Assembly: GCF_002804065.1 (NCBI RefSeq)
Contig: NZ_CP024955.1
Coordinates: forward strand, 2,604,001 to 2,668,000
DNA from: Kyrpidia spormannii
GTDB taxonomy: Bacteria; Bacillota; Bacilli; Kyrpidiales; Kyrpidiaceae
Direction: 5' to 3'
DNA: 64,000 nucleotides
Positions 5,607 through 59,049 of this stretch are shown here, piece after piece; position 1 is the stretch's first letter; each line of letters begins with the position of its first letter. A program made the translations under genes and the position numbers. The notes beneath the pieces are model-generated. The model ran no database searches, had not been told where the DNA came from, and saw only the letters and a list, made by a program, of their open reading frames with translations.

Positions 5607-6641
5607 ATGAGTATTCTGATCGTACTGCCCGTACCGTCTCCACCGGCCGGCGGAAACTGGGTATTCTCCGATCGCCTGCGCCGGCATTTGGCCGAGGTGA
5701 ACCTCCATGTTCGCGTGACCACCCTGGATTCGGTGACAACCGAAGATATCGAGCAGTGCGATATCGTCCATATTTTCAACGCATCCCGCACCGCCGTTCC
5801 GTTTGTCGAAAAGTTCGGCGTTCCGGAGAAACCGATGGTCATCACTTTCACCGGAACGGATGTCAATGAAGAGATGAAACGACCCCGGGAGCGCAGAAAG
5901 ATTGTAGAGGTCGCCTGCCGGGCTCGGCAGCTCATTTTTCTCACCGCCGACGCCCTGCAAGGGTTTTGTATACAATGCCCGGAACTAAAGAACCATTGTG
6001 TGCATATCCCCCTGGGGATCGACGTGCCGCCCGGCCGGGGGTACGACAGGTCTAGGTGGGGATGGCGGGAAGAAGAAGTGGTGTTTTTTCTCCCGGCTGG
6101 ACTGCGGCCGGTCAAGAGGCCCTTATACGCCTTGAAGCCTTTAGCCCGGCTTTACCGGGAAGGCTTACCCGTTCGCCTTTGCTTGGCGGGGGCGGTGTTT
6201 GACCTCGATCTGTTAAGGCAGGTGGAAACAGAAGCGGAGATGAGGCCGTGGTTTCAGTGGCTGGGCGCCGTGCCCCACCGGGAGGTGGGGGACCTCTATC
6301 GATGCGCCGATGTGGTCCTCAACACCTCCACCTCGGAAGGTCTCTCCCACGCGCTCCTTGAAGCGATGGCTGCGGGGAGAGCGGTGATGGCCTCCCGGGT
6401 ACCGGGAAACCGCGATTTGATCCGCCACGGAGAAGACGGCCTGCTGTATGAAGATGCGGAGGAATTTCTGGCATCGGCCCGGCAGTTGGCCCTGGATCCC
6501 GAGTGGCGGGAATCTCTCGGGCAGCGGGCCGCCACACGAGTAGCCCGGGAGTTCTCGCCGGTTGTCGAGCGGGACCGCTACGCGCAGCTCTACCGCCGCC
6601 TGGTCCTTTCACCTTGCGCATCGGGTCAGGTGGCTCCGTAA
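5607..6641 (+). CDS. GT4-type glycosyltransferase
   Basis: A 344-residue GT-B fold protein. The N-terminal Rossmann half contains ILIVLPVPSPPAGGN and a TGTDVNEEM motif. The C-terminal nucleotide-sugar-binding half carries the GT4 signature TSEGLSHALLEAMAAG near residue 245, with the two glutamates seven residues apart. It should transfer a sugar from an activated donor; acceptor and sugar are not evident. The TGTD motif and short length are shared with the SenB-like branch, but I see no partner gene for selenosugar chemistry. The ATG at 5607 follows GGAAGGAG; the frame is open further upstream without a comparable site. Confidence 0.7.
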   Translation: MSILIVLPVPSPPAGGNWVFSDRLRRHLAEVNLHVRVTTLDSVTTEDIEQCDIVHIFNASRTAVPFVEKFGVPEKPMVITFTGTDVNEEMKRPRERRKIVEVACRARQLIFLTADALQGFCIQCPELKNHCVHIPLGIDVPPGRGYDRSRWGWREEEVVFFLPAGLRPVKRPLYALKPLARLYREGLPVRLCLAGAVFDLDLLRQVETEAEMRPWFQWLGAVPHREVGDLYRCADVVLNTSTSEGLSHALLEAMAAGRAVMASRVPGNRDLIRHGEDGLLYEDAEEFLASARQLALDPEWRESLGQRAATRVAREFSPVVERDRYAQLYRRLVLSPCASGQVAP

Positions 6642-51394: not shown

Positions 51395-51521
51395 TCCGGG
51401 CCCTCAACCGGTGCTTGAGATGGGCGCACCGGGCGCGATCAGACGACCGTGCCGACCCGGGAACTCTTTTGGGTCTGTCCGATCGGCCTCAGGGAAATGG
51501 ATCGAAGGGGGCGGGACACCG

Positions 51522-52184
51522 TTGTGGACCGCAATTTGGGCCATAGTGAGAAAAGATGTCACTTTGGAATACCGACGAAGATGGCTGCTCGCCTCGGCGG
51601 TTCTGTTCGGATTTTTGTTCGTGGTGGTCCTGGGCATTGCCTATAACGGCAAGCCCTTGCCCACAGACGCCGCGGCGGGAGCACTTTGGATGGTCCTCCT
51701 GTTCTCCTGCGTCACCATCCTGCTGCGGACGAGCTCCTTCGAGGAAGAGCGCAAGGCTTGGTACGCCCTTCTCATGGCACCGGTGGACCGGAGTGCCATC
51801 TTTTATGGTAAGCTGGTGGCAAACATCTTGTTTCTCTTTTTGGTCGAGCTGGCGGTGACGCCATCCTTTTGGCTCATTTTGGGCGTGCCAGCTCCAAACT
51901 CCTGGGTCCCGCTGCTGGCGGGGCTTGTGGCGGGTGCCCTGGGTCTTGCGGCCGTGGGGACGTTTTTGCTTTTCCTCACATCCTCCAGCGAAGGACGGGA
52001 GATCTTGTTCCCGGTCTCCATGATCCCGCTCACCATCCCGCTCCTTTTAGCGGTCACTCGATTGACCGCCGGGGCGTGGGGCGGAGGCGGCGATTTGTTC
52101 GTGTGGTATGCGATCGCCGGGGGATACTTGGTTTTGTTCGGGCTTTTACCCTGGTTGTTATTCGAGCTCCTGGTGGAGGTGTGA
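51522..52184 (+). CDS. ccmB: Haem exporter membrane protein CcmB
   Basis: A 220-residue, six-helix protein starting with WAIVRKDVTLEYRRRWLL and containing RTSSFEEERKAWYALLMAPVDRSAIFYGKLVAN, the conserved cytoplasmic loop of CcmB. It is the membrane half of the CcmAB ATPase. The TTG at 51522 is preferred with AAGGGGG upstream. The 127-base gap after ccmA holds no gene that I can see. Confidence 0.85.
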   Translation: MWTAIWAIVRKDVTLEYRRRWLLASAVLFGFLFVVVLGIAYNGKPLPTDAAAGALWMVLLFSCVTILLRTSSFEEERKAWYALLMAPVDRSAIFYGKLVANILFLFLVELAVTPSFWLILGVPAPNSWVPLLAGLVAGALGLAAVGTFLLFLTSSSEGREILFPVSMIPLTIPLLLAVTRLTAGAWGGGGDLFVWYAIAGGYLVLFGLLPWLLFELLVEV

Positions 52185-52187
52185 CGG

Positions 52188-52916
52188 GTGCGGGATAAAG
52201 GGCTCACTGTTCTAACGGGAGTCGTTTTCATCGCCGGGCTGGCGGCGATTTATGCCGCGTTCATCTATGCGCCCCCGGAACGTTTCATGGGGGATTTGCA
52301 ACGATTGATGTATTTTCATATCGGCAGCGCCTGGGCAGCGATGCTCGCTTTTTTTATGGTATTCGTCTACGGCGTCGGGTATCTCTTCACCCGGCGGCCT
52401 TCTTTTGACCGATTGGCCTTGGCGTCGGCGGAAGTGGGAGTGTTTTTCACCACGTTGGTCCTCATCACCGGGCCGATTTGGGCGAGGCCGGTGTGGAACA
52501 CGTGGTGGACCTGGGATCCGCGGTTGACCACGACCCTCATCCTATGGTTTATCTACATTGCTTATTTGTTGCTCCGGAGCAGTATCGCCGATGACACGAG
52601 GCGTCGAGTGGTGGCGTCCATTTTCGGCATCATCGGCTTTTTGGACGTCCCCATTGTGCATTTTTCGGTGACTTGGTGGCGTTCGATCCATCCCAATGTC
52701 ATCACGGGTGGCACCATCAACATGGCCCCGGCGATGACCCAGGCTCTCATGGTGAACGGCATCGCTTTCGTCCTGCTCTACGTTCTTCTCACATGGCTCC
52801 GGGCCCGGCTCGAGGCCGCCCGGGAGGAAGTGGCCCGACTGCAGCACCGGGTGTATGAACGGGCGAGCGACAGAACTGTGGAAGGGCATGGGGGTTCTGG
52901 TGCGGACATCTCTTGA
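52188..52916 (+). CDS. ccmC: Haem-handling membrane protein CcmC
   Basis: The 242-residue protein has six helices, the WWD motif VWNTWWTWDPRLT near residue 105 and conserved haem-ligand histidines (MYFHIGSAW near 45; PIVHFSVTWWRSIHP near 155). CcmC loads haem onto CcmE outside the membrane. The GTG start is three bases past ccmB. It ends with a charged tail of about 45 residues. Confidence 0.93.
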   Translation: MRDKGLTVLTGVVFIAGLAAIYAAFIYAPPERFMGDLQRLMYFHIGSAWAAMLAFFMVFVYGVGYLFTRRPSFDRLALASAEVGVFFTTLVLITGPIWARPVWNTWWTWDPRLTTTLILWFIYIAYLLLRSSIADDTRRRVVASIFGIIGFLDVPIVHFSVTWWRSIHPNVITGGTINMAPAMTQALMVNGIAFVLLYVLLTWLRARLEAAREEVARLQHRVYERASDRTVEGHGGSGADIS

Positions 52917-53050
52917 GCTCGTCCCGTCTTGGCGCCATGGTCGCGACGTGGTGCCTCGGAGATGACGAAGGTATTCAAACCGCTCTGCCTGACCGCCACA
53001 CTTCGTCGGTGAGCCCGGAGTGAGGAGCTAGAGGAAAGGAGGAACAGTCC

Positions 53051-53194
53051 ATGTCCAACATGCAATTTCTGTTTCTGGGGACGGCAGTGGTGTGGATCGG
53101 AACGTTGCTTTATGTCCTTTCCTTGATGCGGCGCCAAAACCGCACCCTGCGAATGATTGAGCAACTGCAAAAGAGTCTGGAGGATGAAAGCTGA
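53051..53194 (+). CDS. CcmD-like small membrane protein
   Basis: A 47-residue protein, too short for most gene callers. One N-terminal helix (about residues 4-24) is followed by a basic, then amphipathic stretch (LMRRQNRTLRMIEQLQKSL). This size, topology and position after ccmC match CcmD, which binds CcmC and CcmE and helps release holo-CcmE. AAAGGAGG lies nine bases before the ATG. Its TGA overlaps the next ATG by one base. The 134-base gap before it contains a long inverted repeat (GACGAAG at 52964 with CTTCGTC at 53001). Confidence 0.75.
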   Translation: MSNMQFLFLGTAVVWIGTLLYVLSLMRRQNRTLRMIEQLQKSLEDES

Positions 53195-53760
53195 TGAACA
53201 GAGCGGGGGAAAGATCATCGACATCGGGTGGCTCCGGCTCGCCCCCGCGGCAGGCATTTAAATGGGCACTGCTCATCCCGGTCCTCCTGCTCGGCGCCGC
53301 CCTGGCCTACGCGGCGTGGCATCTGGCCCGCGGCGATGGCCCCAAGGCGACGGTGGGACAATCGGCACCTGAGTTAACCCTGGCGGATTTGGACGGGCAA
53401 ACCTTCCACCTGTCCAACTACCGGGGACGGGTGATCGTATTGAATTTTTTCACATCCTGGTGCCCGCCATGTCAGCAGGAAGCCCCGGAGCTCGCCCGGT
53501 TCGCGCGATCGGCAAGCCCGGGCACTGTCCTGGTCATGGTGGATCGGGGAGAAGCCGAGGGCCCGGTCCGCCGCTTCATCCAGAAATATGGCATCGACGC
53601 CCACGTCGTCATGGATCCGGACAACCGGGCCTCTCAAGCCTTTGGCGTCACCGGCCAACCGGAAACTTTTATTATCGATCGGCAAGGCATCATCCGACAA
53701 CACGTCATTGGCCCCACCACCGCCAAAGGGTTGGAGCAGATGACGGCGCCATGGGAATGA
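53194..53760 (+). CDS. TlpA/ResA/CcmG-like membrane-anchored thioredoxin
   Basis: This 188-residue protein has an N-terminal anchor (residues 23-42) and an extracytoplasmic thioredoxin fold with the active site WCPPC (C90, C93) and a TGQPETFIID cis-Pro region. It should keep apocytochrome cysteines reduced, as CcmG or ResA do. Its start is coupled to the CcmD-like gene (TGATG). A GGGG/CCCC stem with a short T-tract follows the stop and may end the ccm transcript. Confidence 0.9.
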   Translation: MNRAGERSSTSGGSGSPPRQAFKWALLIPVLLLGAALAYAAWHLARGDGPKATVGQSAPELTLADLDGQTFHLSNYRGRVIVLNFFTSWCPPCQQEAPELARFARSASPGTVLVMVDRGEAEGPVRRFIQKYGIDAHVVMDPDNRASQAFGVTGQPETFIIDRQGIIRQHVIGPTTAKGLEQMTAPWE

Positions 53761-54097: not shown

Positions 54098-54109
54098 TTT
54101 TCAGGACTT

Positions 54110-54147
54110 GTTATGCGTTTGTTAGGCTCTCGTCAGTCTTCTGTCAG
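54110..54147 (+). promoter_or_regulatory. Four 11-bp-phased direct repeats (response-regulator site)
   Basis: GTTAT (54110), GTTAG (54121), GTCAG (54132) and GTCAG (54143) start exactly 11 bases apart. Tandem short repeats at 10-11 bp are how OmpR-family response regulators bind as head-to-tail dimers. They overlap the -35 region of the promoter at 54158, so the regulator would activate. An OmpR-type gene is the fifth gene of this operon. Confidence 0.65.
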
Positions 54148-54157
54148 GACAGCGGGC

Positions 54158-54163
54158 TAGAAT
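54158..54163 (+). promoter_or_regulatory. -10 element of the flavinylation operon
   Basis: TAGAAT lies ten bases after the last direct repeat and about 31 bases before the GTG of the first gene. No independent -35 hexamer is seen; the repeats occupy that place, as expected for an activator-dependent promoter. Confidence 0.5.
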
Positions 54164-54193
54164 GAGTAGCAGAAAGTAAAGGAGGGATCGGAC

Positions 54194-54868
54194 GTGCAGA
54201 AAAACCGGTCATCCGGACGCGGCACCGTGCCGGCCGTCCTGGTGCTGGTCTCGGCCACCGCCTGGAGTTTTCTGGCCGGCGCCTGGCTGGTCCTGAAACA
54301 TCCACAGTTGGCCGGGCAAATTGACTGGCTGATCGTCCGGGCCAGCGGCATCACCGCCTTTGCCCTGCTGACTGCCGTGGTGGGGATGGGACTGCTCATG
54401 GCGAATCCGAGGAATAAAACCCAGTGGCGTCTGACCCCCCGGCTCATGCCGTGGCACCGTTCACTCGCCATGGTCACCCTGAGCTTTCTGCTCACTCATT
54501 TGACCATGCTTTTGCTCGACCACCAATCGGGGTTCGGTTGGCGCGAATTGTTCGTGCCGATGGCCTCGGGGTACCGGCCCATCGCCGTAGCCTTTGGAAT
54601 CGGCTCCTTCTACCTGTTGATCATCACTCTGGTCACCGCCCACATGCCGCGCCTTCTGCCAAAGGGCGGCTGGCTGCGGATCCATCGGATCGCCGCGGCC
54701 GCCTGGGTGGCGGCCTGGTTCCACGGAATTCTCGCCGGCACCGATACACCGACCATCGGCGGATTGTACCAGGTGAGCGGGTTTGTGCTCGTCGTCCTCT
54801 TGTTCTTGCGTTATTGGCCGGTGGCCGACCCCGTTCCAGCCGGACAGAAAAGGAGGAATGAATTGTGA
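54194..54868 (+). CDS. Ferric reductase-like di-haem transmembrane protein
   Basis: A 224-residue protein with six likely helices. Two histidine pairs are spaced for two b haems on neighbouring helices: H88-x13-H102 and H164-x12-H177, the arrangement of the ferric reductase/NOX transmembrane superfamily. No FAD or NADPH domain is present, so electrons must enter from a quinone or another protein. It would carry electrons across the membrane. The GTG start has GGAGGG eight bases upstream. It opens a six-gene operon with two flavinylation-motif proteins and ApbE. Confidence 0.82.
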   Translation: MQKNRSSGRGTVPAVLVLVSATAWSFLAGAWLVLKHPQLAGQIDWLIVRASGITAFALLTAVVGMGLLMANPRNKTQWRLTPRLMPWHRSLAMVTLSFLLTHLTMLLLDHQSGFGWRELFVPMASGYRPIAVAFGIGSFYLLIITLVTAHMPRLLPKGGWLRIHRIAAAAWVAAWFHGILAGTDTPTIGGLYQVSGFVLVVLLFLRYWPVADPVPAGQKRRNEL

Positions 54869-55374
54869 ACCCGCGCAATGTCATTGCCGTATTGAGCAGT
54901 GTGGTGCTTCTCGGCGGCGGTTGGTACGCCCTGCGCACCGCCCAGTCTATGGCCGATGCCCGGGTAAACGCCGGACAGCCCAGTGCAACCCCTTCAGCAG
55001 CGGGGTCAGCGGCCGGGCCCGCCCTCCAGTTCGATAGCACGGCACCGGGAGGAGTTTCGGCTTCCACCCCCGGGGTGGTTGATTCGAGCGGGTATAATCC
55101 CGGTGGAGCCACCGGGCCGGCCGTCACCCAGCCTCCGGTCACCGCACCGGCGGTGGACACCGTCACCGGGGCATCGGGACACAGAACCCGCAACGTTATC
55201 ACAACCGGAACTTTCACCAGTGCCGGGACCGCCGGCAATAACGCCGCTGTCCAGACTCCACCTGCCGCCCAAGGGGTGACAGGGGCATCGGGAGGCGAGT
55301 CTCATGAACACGGGGAGGACCACGACGCCTATGAACACGGCGGCTCCCATGAATCGGAGCAAAACGATGACTGA
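54865..55374 (+). CDS. Membrane-anchored disordered protein with two TGAS flavinylation motifs and a His-rich tail
   Basis: This 169-residue protein has one N-terminal helix (residues 5-22). The rest is low-complexity Ala/Gly/Pro/Thr/Ser, with no folded FMN-binding domain visible. Two motifs match the ApbE target D-x-x-T-G-A-[ST]: D98-TVTGAS-104, and QGVTGAS (136-142) with Gln for Asp. The C-terminus holds H147, H149, H153, H158 and H162 among acidic residues and may bind metal. An ApbE gene lies two genes downstream. The ATG overlaps the previous stop by four bases. The protein family is not one I can name. Confidence 0.75.
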   Translation: MNPRNVIAVLSSVVLLGGGWYALRTAQSMADARVNAGQPSATPSAAGSAAGPALQFDSTAPGGVSASTPGVVDSSGYNPGGATGPAVTQPPVTAPAVDTVTGASGHRTRNVITTGTFTSAGTAGNNAAVQTPPAAQGVTGASGGESHEHGEDHDAYEHGGSHESEQNDD

Positions 55375-55978
55375 TCGGCGCGGACCTTCGACCTTGGACA
55401 AGAAGAGTATGGCCAATCCGGAAGGGACAAACCGACAAGTTGAGCCGCGAAAAGGCGGCACACGCCCTGACGGAGGGGGAAAGAACCGCCGGGACCGATC
55501 GGGGTTCATCGGCTTCGCAGCAGCCACGGCCTTTTTCACCGTCTTATTGGGCCGGATGGTCGCAGCGGGACCGGTGGCGGCCAATACTGACTGGAACGCC
55601 TCCGGTCAGGCGCCGTCCTCGGCAACGGTTCACGCGGGTTTGGCCCCCGGGCAATCCGGACCGGGGGAAGCGCCCTCAACCCCCGGCACGCCTACACCCG
55701 GTACCGGCGGAACCGGGATAGACCCCGGGACTCTTCCCCCCGGCCCGGACGGATCCGGAAGCGCGCCAGGCTTTGGGGGAGCAGGCGATCCATCGGTGTC
55801 GGGGAGCTCCGGTGGGGACGGGAGCTGGAACGCCCCCGGTGACAACGGTCAGGGAAGCAATCCCGGTTTTGTGCCCGATTACGGTCCCTCCCAGACTCCC
55901 CCCGGGTCTTATGGGCCACCTGCGTACGGCCCACCGGCAATGAGCCCTCCGGTGGACGGTATCACGGGCGCCAGTTAA
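55367..55978 (+). CDS. Membrane-anchored disordered protein ending in a TGAS flavinylation motif
   Basis: A 203-residue protein with a basic, polar cytoplasmic start of about 45 residues, a single helix (about 47-64) and a long Gly/Pro/Ser-rich extracytoplasmic region. It terminates in V-D-G-I-T-G-A-S, so the ApbE target serine would be the last residue (S203). No folded domain is visible. NRRDRSGFIG before the helix resembles, but does not match, a twin-arginine signal. The ATG at 55367 overlaps the previous stop and has GGAG at eight bases. It is unusually rich in Gly and Pro (spaced PGTPTPGTGG and PPAYGPPA units). Confidence 0.75.
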   Translation: MTDRRGPSTLDKKSMANPEGTNRQVEPRKGGTRPDGGGKNRRDRSGFIGFAAATAFFTVLLGRMVAAGPVAANTDWNASGQAPSSATVHAGLAPGQSGPGEAPSTPGTPTPGTGGTGIDPGTLPPGPDGSGSAPGFGGAGDPSVSGSSGGDGSWNAPGDNGQGSNPGFVPDYGPSQTPPGSYGPPAYGPPAMSPPVDGITGAS

Positions 55979-56000
55979 TCGCAGGAATGGAGGAGCGAGG

Positions 56001-57005
56001 ATGGCCATTTATGAACACGCATTTCAATCCATGGCCTCGCCCATCCGCATCCGCCTCGATTTCCCGGGAAATCACCAACGGGAGTACGCTGAGGCCGCAA
56101 CCGAAATTTGGGACATGGCAAAAAGCGAGTTTGCGTCCGTGGTGAAAGCTCTGTCCCGGTTCGATCCGGCCAGTGAACTTTCCCGACTCAACCGAAGTCC
56201 CGGGCAGTGGGTGGCCGTCTCCCCCCTGCTTCGGGAAGCCTTGCAGAAGGCCTGGGAAGCCTACGAATATACGGGCGGGGTCTTTGATCCCAGGATTTTG
56301 CGGTCTCTGGAAGCGCTGGGATACACAGGTGCGCCGGTCGCCCCCCTCTCAACCGGTGGGAGGCGGGACGGCACGGACAGTGTGCGGGGAGTCCCCACCA
56401 GTTTTGATTCGGACGGGGAAAAATTCCCGGAACCTTGGGCAGACCCCGCACATTGGGTGGAATTTGACGGCGATCGGGTCCGGATCGAAGCACCCCTGGA
56501 CCTCGGTGGTCTCGGGAAAAGCCTGGCCGTGGATCGGGTGCGCGAAGGTATTTTGAGCCACCCCGCAGCCAGGCAGATGAAGGGATTTCTGGTCAATGCC
56601 GGCGGCGATCTTTATGCGTGGGGAACCCGGGAGGACGGGGATCATTGGCGGGTGGGAATCGAAGATCCCACCGCCCCCGCCACCATTTTGGCGGCCCTGG
56701 ATCTGCCTCTATCCACAGCCGTCTGTACGTCCTCCATCGCCCGGCGCCGCTGGATTCACGACGGCCGCCCGGTGCACCATCTGATCGACCCCGCCACGGG
56801 GCAGCCGGCGGAGTCGCCCTATTTGAGCGTCACCTGCGCGTATCCGGACCCCATCACGGCAGAGATTATCACAAAGGTATTATTTATACGGCCTGCGCAA
56901 TCCTTGCGCATCTGGCCTTGGCCCGATTATATTTGGTGGGTGACGACGGATGTCCGGCTTCTCGCCACACCCTCTGGACAGCGGTGGGTCACCTGGAGCC
57001 GGTAA
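56001..57005 (+). CDS. apbE: ApbE-type FAD:protein FMN transferase
   Basis: The 334-residue enzyme has the ApbE core: FQSMASPIRIRL at the start, SRFDPASELSRLN, TGGVFDPRIL, LDLGGLGKSLAVDRV near 170, NAGGDLYAWG near 200 and HHLIDPATGQPA near 255. It transfers FMN from FAD to Ser or Thr in D-x-x-[ST]-G-A-[ST] motifs using magnesium. Two candidate substrates precede it. It has no signal peptide or lipobox, unlike most exported ApbE proteins. The ATG follows GGAGG at six bases. Confidence 0.92.
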   Translation: MAIYEHAFQSMASPIRIRLDFPGNHQREYAEAATEIWDMAKSEFASVVKALSRFDPASELSRLNRSPGQWVAVSPLLREALQKAWEAYEYTGGVFDPRILRSLEALGYTGAPVAPLSTGGRRDGTDSVRGVPTSFDSDGEKFPEPWADPAHWVEFDGDRVRIEAPLDLGGLGKSLAVDRVREGILSHPAARQMKGFLVNAGGDLYAWGTREDGDHWRVGIEDPTAPATILAALDLPLSTAVCTSSIARRRWIHDGRPVHHLIDPATGQPAESPYLSVTCAYPDPITAEIITKVLFIRPAQSLRIWPWPDYIWWVTTDVRLLATPSGQRWVTWSR

Positions 57006-57019
57006 AGGAGAGAGAGTCG

Positions 57020-57718
57020 TTGAAGATTCTTCTGGTGGAAGACGATCCGCGAATCGCCGGACTCGTGGTCAAAGGCCTTGAGCGGGAACACATGGCCACC
57101 GATCACGCGCCGGACGCCCAAACCGCACAATTGATGGTGGAGATGAACCAGTACGACTTGTTCATCATCGACGTCGGGCTTCCCGGCTCTACGGACGGCT
57201 TTGCCTTGTGCGACATCCTCCGCCGAAGGGGATACGACGCACCCGTGTTATTTTTGACCGCCAGGGACAGCCTGGCGGATAAACTGACGGGATTTGACCG
57301 GGGCGGAGACGATTACTTGGTCAAGCCTTTCGCTTTTGCCGAACTGGTGGCGCGCATTCGGGCGTTGCTCAAACGGGCCAATCGCCCCCTCCAGCCTGAA
57401 CGCCTAAAAGTAGGTGAATGGGAACTTGATCCAAAAACCCACACCTTTTCCATCGCCGGTCAAGAGGTGGAGTTGACCAGCAAAGAATTTCAGTTGCTCG
57501 AACTGTTGATGCAATATCCTCGGTACACCTTGAGCAAGATCCAGATTTTAGAGCAGGTGTGGGGATTTGCCCCGGACGCGGTCACCAACGTGGTGGAGGT
57601 CACCATTGGGCGCTTGCGCCAAAAAATTGAAGGGTTTTACCGGGAACGCGGCATGCATCCCGGAGTAGTCATTCAAACAGTGCGGGGCGTCGGCTATCGC
57701 CTGGCGGATCGGTCATGA
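57020..57718 (+). CDS. OmpR/PhoB-family response regulator
   Basis: A 232-residue regulator with a receiver domain (ILLVEDDP, phospho-acceptor D51 in IIDVGLPG, YLVKPF near 100) and a winged-helix DNA-binding domain (LTSKEFQLLELLM, then NVVEVTIGRLRQKI and VRGVGYRL). It probably binds the 11-bp-phased repeats at 54110-54147 and controls its own operon. The TTG at 57020 is preferred with AAAGGAG nine bases before it. Confidence 0.93.
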   Translation: MKILLVEDDPRIAGLVVKGLEREHMATDHAPDAQTAQLMVEMNQYDLFIIDVGLPGSTDGFALCDILRRRGYDAPVLFLTARDSLADKLTGFDRGGDDYLVKPFAFAELVARIRALLKRANRPLQPERLKVGEWELDPKTHTFSIAGQEVELTSKEFQLLELLMQYPRYTLSKIQILEQVWGFAPDAVTNVVEVTIGRLRQKIEGFYRERGMHPGVVIQTVRGVGYRLADRS

Positions 57719-59049
57719 CGGGCTTCACTCCCCAACCAACCCGGCGGAAACTGCGACAAACCGGGATCCAAGCGTATCTCAAAACGACCCGCTGGCGACT
57801 GACCGCCAGCTATGTGGGGATTTTGTTGGTCGTGGAACTCATTATCGGCCTCTTTGTCGGGGTGCTTTTGCACCATCAGGTGGTTCGGGACGTGGAACAT
57901 GTCCTGCAAGACCATCTGCCGAAAGAGGAAAACCACGAATGGAACGAAGGTCACGACCATAAACACAATACAATACCGATGCCACCGATCGGAGACGACC
58001 GCCCGGCTTACGAAGTGGGCTACTACGTGGTCGCCGACAAGCGCTGGTACACGCCTTATACAAGTGGGGTGCTCCCCTATCAAGCCGGGGCCGACCGGGT
58101 TAGTGCGACGGGGAATCCGGAATTACAGCTGATCACAGCTTCAGACGGGACCCCTTTTTACGTGTACAGCATGCCCACCTTTCACGACGGCACCCTGACC
58201 TCGATACGCCAATCGGCCATGGACGCCACCTTGCCATTGGACGTCCTGCGGCATTTTAACATGCTGCTGACAACTTTTATCATTCTCGCTTCCGCCGCCG
58301 CTGTGATCGGTGGATACATTCTGGCCGGTCGGGCATTGCGCCCCATTGCCCAAATGGCCAAGCGACAGCAGTCTTTCACGGCGGACGCCTCCCACCAGTT
58401 GCGTACCCCGTTGACCGTGATCCGGACTACCGCGGAACTGGCCCTGGGGACGGACGATCCCGCGGAGTGGCGGGACGCGCTGGAGACCGCCGTGGCGGAA
58501 ACACATCATATGTCCCGCACGGTCGAATCCCTGGCCACCCTGGCCAGGATGGACTACCAGGAGGGAGCGGTGAAACGCAGCCCCTTCTCGGTCCGGGATT
58601 TGGTGGAGGAAGTGGCGGCCCATATCGAGCCCGTGGCCAGGGAAAAAGGGGTAACCTTCCACGCTCCCGAAGTAGGTGAAGACCGTCTGGTCGGCGACCA
58701 ACATCGCATTTGGCAACTTTTAACGGTCCTATTGGAAAATGCGATAAAATATACGCCGGAAGGTGGACATGTGTATTTTTCCTACCGCCAGAATGGTCCG
58801 GAGGCCGTTTTCACCGTGCGGGATACGGGCATCGGTATCGCCCGGGAGGAGTTGCCCCATATTTTTGACCGGTTCTATCGGGGCTCTGTCGTTCAAAAAG
58901 AACGAATCCCAGGTTCGGGCCTCGGCCTCTCCATTGCCAAAGAGATCGCCGAGCTCCACGAGGGCACGATCCATGTCGACAGCGAGGTCGGAGTGGGAAC
59001 GACTTTCACGGTCAGCCTGCCGATCGCCGGGCAGAAGAAGTCTTCTTAG
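57715..59049 (+). CDS. Sensor histidine kinase with a His-rich extracytoplasmic loop
   Basis: The 444-residue kinase has two helices (about 31-52 and 184-206) enclosing a sensor domain of about 130 residues. It then has a HAMP-like linker, HisKA with H227 in DASHQLRTPL, and an HATPase domain (LLENAIKYTPEG, DTGIGIA, GSGLGLSIA). The sensor loop begins with a cluster of histidines (H74, H80, H82, H84 in ENHEWNEGHDHKHN), which suggests a metal-ion signal. It overlaps the regulator gene by four bases. The signal is not proven; copper, zinc, nickel or iron are possible. Confidence 0.92.
   Translation: MTGFTPQPTRRKLRQTGIQAYLKTTRWRLTASYVGILLVVELIIGLFVGVLLHHQVVRDVEHVLQDHLPKEENHEWNEGHDHKHNTIPMPPIGDDRPAYEVGYYVVADKRWYTPYTSGVLPYQAGADRVSATGNPELQLITASDGTPFYVYSMPTFHDGTLTSIRQSAMDATLPLDVLRHFNMLLTTFIILASAAAVIGGYILAGRALRPIAQMAKRQQSFTADASHQLRTPLTVIRTTAELALGTDDPAEWRDALETAVAETHHMSRTVESLATLARMDYQEGAVKRSPFSVRDLVEEVAAHIEPVAREKGVTFHAPEVGEDRLVGDQHRIWQLLTVLLENAIKYTPEGGHVYFSYRQNGPEAVFTVRDTGIGIAREELPHIFDRFYRGSVVQKERIPGSGLGLSIAKEIAELHEGTIHVDSEVGVGTTFTVSLPIAGQKKSS

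Follow-up and report, generated by a model that had tools for sequence, protein, structure and literature searches.

Analysis of a 64,000-nucleotide window of the Kyrpidia spormannii genome (contig NZ_CP024955.1, positions 2,604,001 to 2,668,000; coordinates without a locus name refer to this window) revealed six plus-strand ORFs at 54194-59049, neighbouring members of which overlap by 4-8 bp or sit 14-22 bp apart (Table 1). The set comprises a ferric-reductase-like membrane protein (FRD), two anchored proteins of low complexity (P2 and P3), an ApbE, a response regulator and a sensor kinase. The first-pass annotation, made from the sequence alone, had described a tightly spaced six-gene operon, and the ORF calls and Pfam agree with it for the FRD, ApbE, regulator and kinase. 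The ApbE reads TAEIITK at the segment that is xADxxxT in canonical ApbEs, and enzymes with this Lys in place of Thr are referred to below as Lys-type.

Table 1. Features of the operon, with the basis of each assignment.
Feature	Position	Strand	Basis
Probable promoter/operator	54108-54163	+	Direct repeats and a -10-like box
FRD/MsrQ-like di-haem b membrane protein, 224 aa	54194-54868	+	PF01794 match and four invariant His
P2, anchor and disordered tail, predicted flavinylation substrate	54865-55374	+	Sequence motifs, AlphaFold2, relatives
P3, anchor and Gly/Pro/Ser-rich tail, predicted flavinylation substrate	55367-55978	+	C-terminal DGITGAS, AlphaFold2, relatives
ApbE, Lys-type, without signal peptide	56001-57005	+	PF02424, E 1.7e-46
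OmpR/PhoB-type response regulator	57020-57718	+	Pfam Response_reg and Trans_reg_C
Sensor histidine kinase	57715-59049	+	Pfam HisKA and HATPase_c

The putative control region consists of four 7-bp direct repeats with an exact 11-bp period (TTGTTAT at 54108, TTGTTAG at 54119, TCGTCAG at 54130 and CTGTCAG at 54141) and, 3' of them, a -10-like TAGAAT at 54158-54163. The array resembles OmpR/PhoB-type sites; it is kept in a genome of the same genus (G001), and an array of identical period and spacing precedes the operon of a second genus of the family (genome G003, locus L065, 4810-4865). A generic promoter and terminator scan, which performed no better than on shuffled sequence, did not flag 54108-54163. 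The operon is probably under the control of its adjoining two-component system, acting on this array, and a regulator-kinase pair lies near 23 of 109 Lys-type loci. On inspection, the sensor kinase displays a His-rich stretch, HEWNEGHDHKHN, after its first membrane helix, and the end of P2 is rich in His and acidic residues (HEHGEDHDAYEHGGSHE), both hinting at metal sensing or binding. The region 5' of the operon (51411-53760) contains genes that, by sequence inspection, encode CcmB-like and CcmC-like haem exporters and a TlpA-type thioredoxin, and ccmB/ccmC/tlpA-like genes precede the operon in the same order in L065, a possible link to haem or redox maturation.

Haem protein and tethers of Kyrpidia

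The FRD protein matches PF01794 with an E-value of 2.9e-6, 0.2 bits below the Pfam cut-off, and its residues H88, H102, H164 and H177 are kept in 102-105 of 105 sequences. These four invariant His, with spacings of 14 and 13, point to two b haems, in line with the di-haem ferric-reductase-like protein originally proposed. The Kyrpidia FRD is devoid of a cytosolic FAD/NAD domain, as are most FRD proteins of the compared loci, and one, in locus L166, possesses it, so that electrons may enter from quinol in most cases and from NAD(P)H in some. In candidate-phylum bins, the FRD carries N-terminal TSP3-type repeats (L166, 5951-7507, the protein that also has FAD- and NAD-binding domains; L173, 5816-6724). 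In three actinobacterial loci (L149, ~7985; L213, ~7856; L216, ~7876), a small ferredoxin-like protein follows, a possible cytosolic electron donor.

P3 carries a single canonical motif, DGITGAS, which is its exact C-terminus, whereas P2 has one canonical DTVTGAS and one degenerate QGVTGAS; the earlier picture of two anchored, low-complexity proteins with D-x-x-T-G-A-S motifs is thus accurate for P3 and the first of these P2 motifs, and overstated for the second. Neither protein matches any Pfam or NCBIfam family. Single-sequence AlphaFold2 models contain one helix in P2 (residues 3-36), with most of the tail at pLDDT below 50, and one helix in P3 (residues 42-66), with the remainder at low confidence. 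Such models are weak evidence alone, and there is no other sign of a fold in either protein. A whole-genome profile search for FMN_bind (PF04205) also found no match in the K. spormannii genome. The proposed lack of a folded FMN-binding domain in P2 and P3 therefore stands at the level of profiles and models, and a diverged FMN_bind fold hidden in them was dropped as a candidate, neither profile nor single-sequence model giving a fold.

The same operon is present in G001 (3,384,766 bp), relative to which dN/dS is about 0.21 for the FRD, 0.30 for ApbE, 0.83 for P2 and 0.62 for P3. Yet the two genomes encode identical sequence at DTVTGAS of P2 and over the final 20 residues of P3. In G003, the operon is conserved and the tails have diverged: the P2 orthologue retains two TGAS motifs (VQAVTGAS and VQSITGAS), and the short P3 has lost its tail and ends in VQAVTGAGGR (L065, ~5994-6183), so that its acceptor residue looks lost. 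The loss of Asp from the first motif position is tolerable: an Asp-to-Ala replacement there had only a minor effect in a tested substrate (PMC12052999).

C-terminal tags in related loci

Searches with the single ApbE protein as query retrieved no loci, and an ApbE alignment as query did; we read the neighbourhoods of the closest ApbEs in the class together with 80 loci from named genomes. Next to the FRD and ApbE genes there is usually a gene for a small protein that carries a single helix at its N-terminus, continues as a low-complexity or coiled-coil tail and terminates in [ST]-x-[AGSR]-[ST]. The C-terminal tags include TGAS, TRAS, SRAS, TRRS, THAS, TGGS, TRGS, TSGS and TYAS, as well as TRSSR and TQSSR in Chloroflexota, and other candidates often carry the motif a few residues inside (for instance, VTRASGHGHDG, VTKASGTSSDDD and STGASGAKP). 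Other Bacilli and Actinomycetota also have a two-protein version like that of Kyrpidia, with an acidic tail after one motif and the second motif close to the terminus; PPPVNATTGAS and PPPVSTSTGAS are examples of its endings. The full pattern D-x-x-[ST]-G-A-[ST] is present in P2 and P3 and only partly in their relatives. Far from being peculiar to a single genome, the kit is found in Bacillota, Chloroflexota, Actinomycetota and candidate phyla, in most cases with the tag at the extreme C-terminus.

Could the motifs simply be by-products of Ser/Gly/Thr-rich linkers, with ApbE acting on another protein? In shuffled tails, the canonical motif arises anywhere in ~0.9% of cases, i.e., about 1% for each such tail, and at the very end in ~6e-5, so that a motif inside a single S/G-rich tail is weak evidence alone. 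A DNA motif search across the whole genome yielded 60 sites, compared to 41 in a reversed control. Among the in-frame sites read, only one outside the operon gave a clear anchored candidate, a LytR-type wall enzyme whose Gly/Ser linker contains DGSSGAS (L035, 412-1752; G000 contig 1, ~186111-187454), which exemplifies what the linker explanation predicts; it was rejected as a further anchored substrate, its motif being judged a chance occurrence, and would make a useful assay control. The motif evidence becomes firm with the neighbours of ApbE: of the anchored ORFs adjoining a Lys-type ApbE or its FRD, 46 of 89 carry a C-terminal tag, often a noncanonical one (TRAS, TRRS, TGGS), against 4.6 expected by shuffling, an enrichment that is somewhat optimistic because the regular expression was written after examples had been seen. 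Given this 10-fold C-terminal enrichment and the PPPVxxxTGAS endings found across phyla, we consider the linker explanation very unlikely. Nevertheless, many tags depart from [ST]GA[ST] (TRAS, TRRS, SQGS), the G003 P3 ends in TGAGGR, and only 46 of 109 Lys-type loci pass a strict rule of adjacency plus tag; all three observations count against the interpretation of the tags as flavinylation sites that we favour below.

For 52 proteins that cannot otherwise be aligned, selected largely by the tag itself, the majority consensus ends in TxAS, with the Ser at least 90% conserved. FMN_bind is not among the families listed for these 52 proteins (first 25 of 29), and one of them contains DUF2271, a domain that experiments have established as an ApbE substrate (PMC8238504). 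A charge bias indicative of an N-in orientation is found in 48 of the 52 tethers and the reverse bias in none, and in three tether proteins a PG_binding_1 domain lies between anchor and tag, which together suggest that the tag lies outside. The latter relatives also lend support to the notion, put forward in the first-pass annotation, of flexible tethers reaching into the wall. In a Chloroflexi relative (L139, 3999-4700), a PepSY-domain protein with an acidic tail is encoded before the tag protein.

The Lys-type ApbE

The Kyrpidia genome (3.35 Mb, single contig) encodes one ApbE. Across 140 ApbE loci, Lys replaces Thr in 99 of 104 FRD-linked enzymes, compared to 10 of 36 without an FRD. Because the Lys-type and Thr-type groups were split on this very column, only the other alignment columns are informative, and among these the Asp of the segment is Glu in 99 of 112 Lys-type sequences and Asp in 33 of 34 Thr-type ones. 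Ser244, His260 and Lys173 (numbering of the L064 sequence), the first two of which are catalytic, are invariant in both types; the FAD-site glycines are invariant as well. By a hydropathy proxy (not SignalP), a hydrophobic N-terminus is absent from the Kyrpidia enzyme and from 107 of 109 Lys-type ApbEs and present in 16 of 31 Thr-type ones. In a tree built by a quick method and rooted at the midpoint, the canonical ApbEs form one group of 27 (SH-aLRT 99), one member of which is a gammaproteobacterial sequence with Lys, and almost all Lys-type sequences fall outside it. Five FRD-linked ApbEs keep Thr, four of which constitute a Chloroflexota subclade nested within the Lys-type group.

The Asp and Thr of xADxxxT are presumably metal ligands of ApbE, and with Thr replaced by Lys and Asp usually by Glu, the activity of the Lys-type enzyme is uncertain, which counts against a transferase role. 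An alternative that draws on these replacements (Lys across the FRD-linked group and Glu in 99 of 112) is that the Lys-type ApbE has lost its transferase activity and serves as a cytosolic FAD-binding subunit feeding the FRD haems, with the tethers used for docking, metal binding or wall attachment. The lack of a signal peptide and the scarcity of FAD/NAD domains among the FRD proteins would fit this arrangement, but neither the catalytic Ser and His nor the glycines of the FAD site vary, the ApbE motif TGAS appears at the same place in distant lineages, and the L166 FRD, encoded beside a Lys-type ApbE, has FAD and NAD domains of its own. We therefore regard the loss of transferase function as unlikely and retain the Lys-type ApbE as a putative flavin transferase. 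NqrC contributes a Lys that lowers the pKa of the acceptor (PMC12052999), and one may speculate that the enzyme Lys replaces what a disordered tag cannot supply.

The distribution of FMN_bind follows the type of ApbE. FMN_bind is absent from all 33 checked genomes in which the sole ApbE is Lys-type (24 class genomes and nine of twenty named genomes, picked from those already matched rather than at random). Conversely, the lone single-ApbE class genome with a Thr-type enzyme has an FMN_bind, and in the eight of the twenty named genomes that have FMN_bind, it sits beside a separate Thr-type ApbE. The actinobacterial locus L219 encodes an FRD of 463 aa, a small protein with DTVSGAS at its FMN_bind match and a Thr-type ApbE, i.e., a classical MsrQ-like cluster, and the same genome harbours the Lys-type locus L213, indicating two different systems. 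These observations bear on the possibility that the Kyrpidia operon is a known MsrQ-like system, of which FRD plus ApbE is the published signature (PMC8238504), and that an ordinary folded FMN_bind substrate was overlooked or is encoded elsewhere. We give this possibility hardly any weight: at the sensitivity of profile searches it is refuted for the Kyrpidia genome, no FMN_bind was found there or in the 33 single-ApbE genomes, no fold is predicted in P2 or P3, and in L219 the canonical-motif substrate comes with a Thr-type ApbE although a Lys-type locus resides in the same genome.

A candidate flavin relay and its relation to known systems

Taken together, these data make it likely, in our view, that the operon encodes a minimal flavin relay, in which ApbE-tagged tethers operate with the FRD haems and represent an undescribed class of ApbE substrates. 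P2 and P3 would be made in the cytosol, where the Lys-type ApbE would transfer the FMN moiety of FAD onto the final Ser of T-G-A-S; the chains would then be exported and held by one helix, with the predicted topology placing the tail outside. The FRD, with two putative b haems across the membrane, would exchange electrons, probably derived from quinol in Kyrpidia, with the tethered flavins, and these may in turn either pass electrons on to an acceptor within or outside the wall or receive electrons from it. Because the enzyme resides in the cytosol and the tag outside it, flavinylation followed by export is the simplest sequence of events, and thus the flavin is probably attached before export; because the C-terminus leaves the cytosol last, this order would also explain the position of the tag, and no FAD would have to move out of the cell. 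ApbE typically flavinylates seven-residue tags to completion when they are placed at the end of a protein (PMC12052999). Two considerations weigh against such a relay: a cytosolic transferase acting on an exported substrate requires the export of a flavin-bearing chain, and reaction with O2 is to be expected of a flexible flavin exposed to solvent. For the broader proposal, namely, a separate branch of flavinylation in which cytosolic Lys-type ApbEs act on the C-terminal residue of secreted, disordered proteins prior to their export, yielding a haem-to-tethered-flavin wire without a folded flavoprotein in Gram-positive and Chloroflexota-type envelopes, we see about even chances.

The closest described counterparts are the MsrQ-like systems (Meheust et al. 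2021, PMC8238504), which share a PF01794 di-haem protein and apbE in one operon and the proposed exchange of electrons across the membrane with a covalent flavin, but typically have a folded FMN_bind and, in many cases, an FRD that includes an NAD domain; in place of the Thr-type ApbE of an example such as L219, the Kyrpidia operon has a cytosolic Lys-type ApbE, disordered tagged tethers and no FMN_bind. The engineered seven-residue Flavin-tag (reviewed in PMC12052999) is likewise a minimal D-x-x-T-G-A-[ST] at a terminus, as at the end of P3, but is a laboratory construct, whereas the Kyrpidia tag would be natural, with a relaxed motif in its relatives. The flavinylated FMN_red proteins of Lactococcus, also a member of Bacillota (PMC11334425), bear the motif on an unstructured C-terminal extension; there, however, the extension is appended to a folded FMN reductase domain and approaches its flavin site, and P2 and P3 have no such domain. 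Finally, the cytosolic ApbE of Klebsiella (PMC12052999) also lacks a signal peptide, but its substrate is a soluble fumarate reductase and not an exported tether.

The published survey (PMC8238504) discarded genes without a signal peptide or lipidation and retained a cluster only if ApbE, FMN_bind, DUF3570 or DUF2271 carried such a feature, and its follow-up searched named Pfam families. In the Kyrpidia operon, the ApbE has no signal peptide by the hydropathy proxy, and the other target genes are absent. The filter excludes most of the class, the substrates of which also mostly have no Pfam domain, which explains why it was missed. In agreement with the initial impression that this architecture was not a described one, a literature search, with subscription journals mostly outside its coverage, found no disordered ApbE substrates or tag-bearing FRD operons. 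The operon and its relatives thus appear to represent a new form of ApbE flavinylation, strong on genomics and with its chemistry predicted.

About 4% of the surveyed genomes (670) were left with an ‘orphan’ apbE for which substrates are unknown (PMC8238504), and the class described here offers a candidate substrate for such genes as well as a diagnostic Lys in ApbE. If the proposed relay is real, a tether and a handful of residues suffice for a flavin carrier, with no need of a fold. One member of the genus Kyrpidia grows on cathodes, by an as yet unclear route (PMC9556394), and tethered flavins may serve electron exchange across thick walls, perhaps in Kyrpidia.
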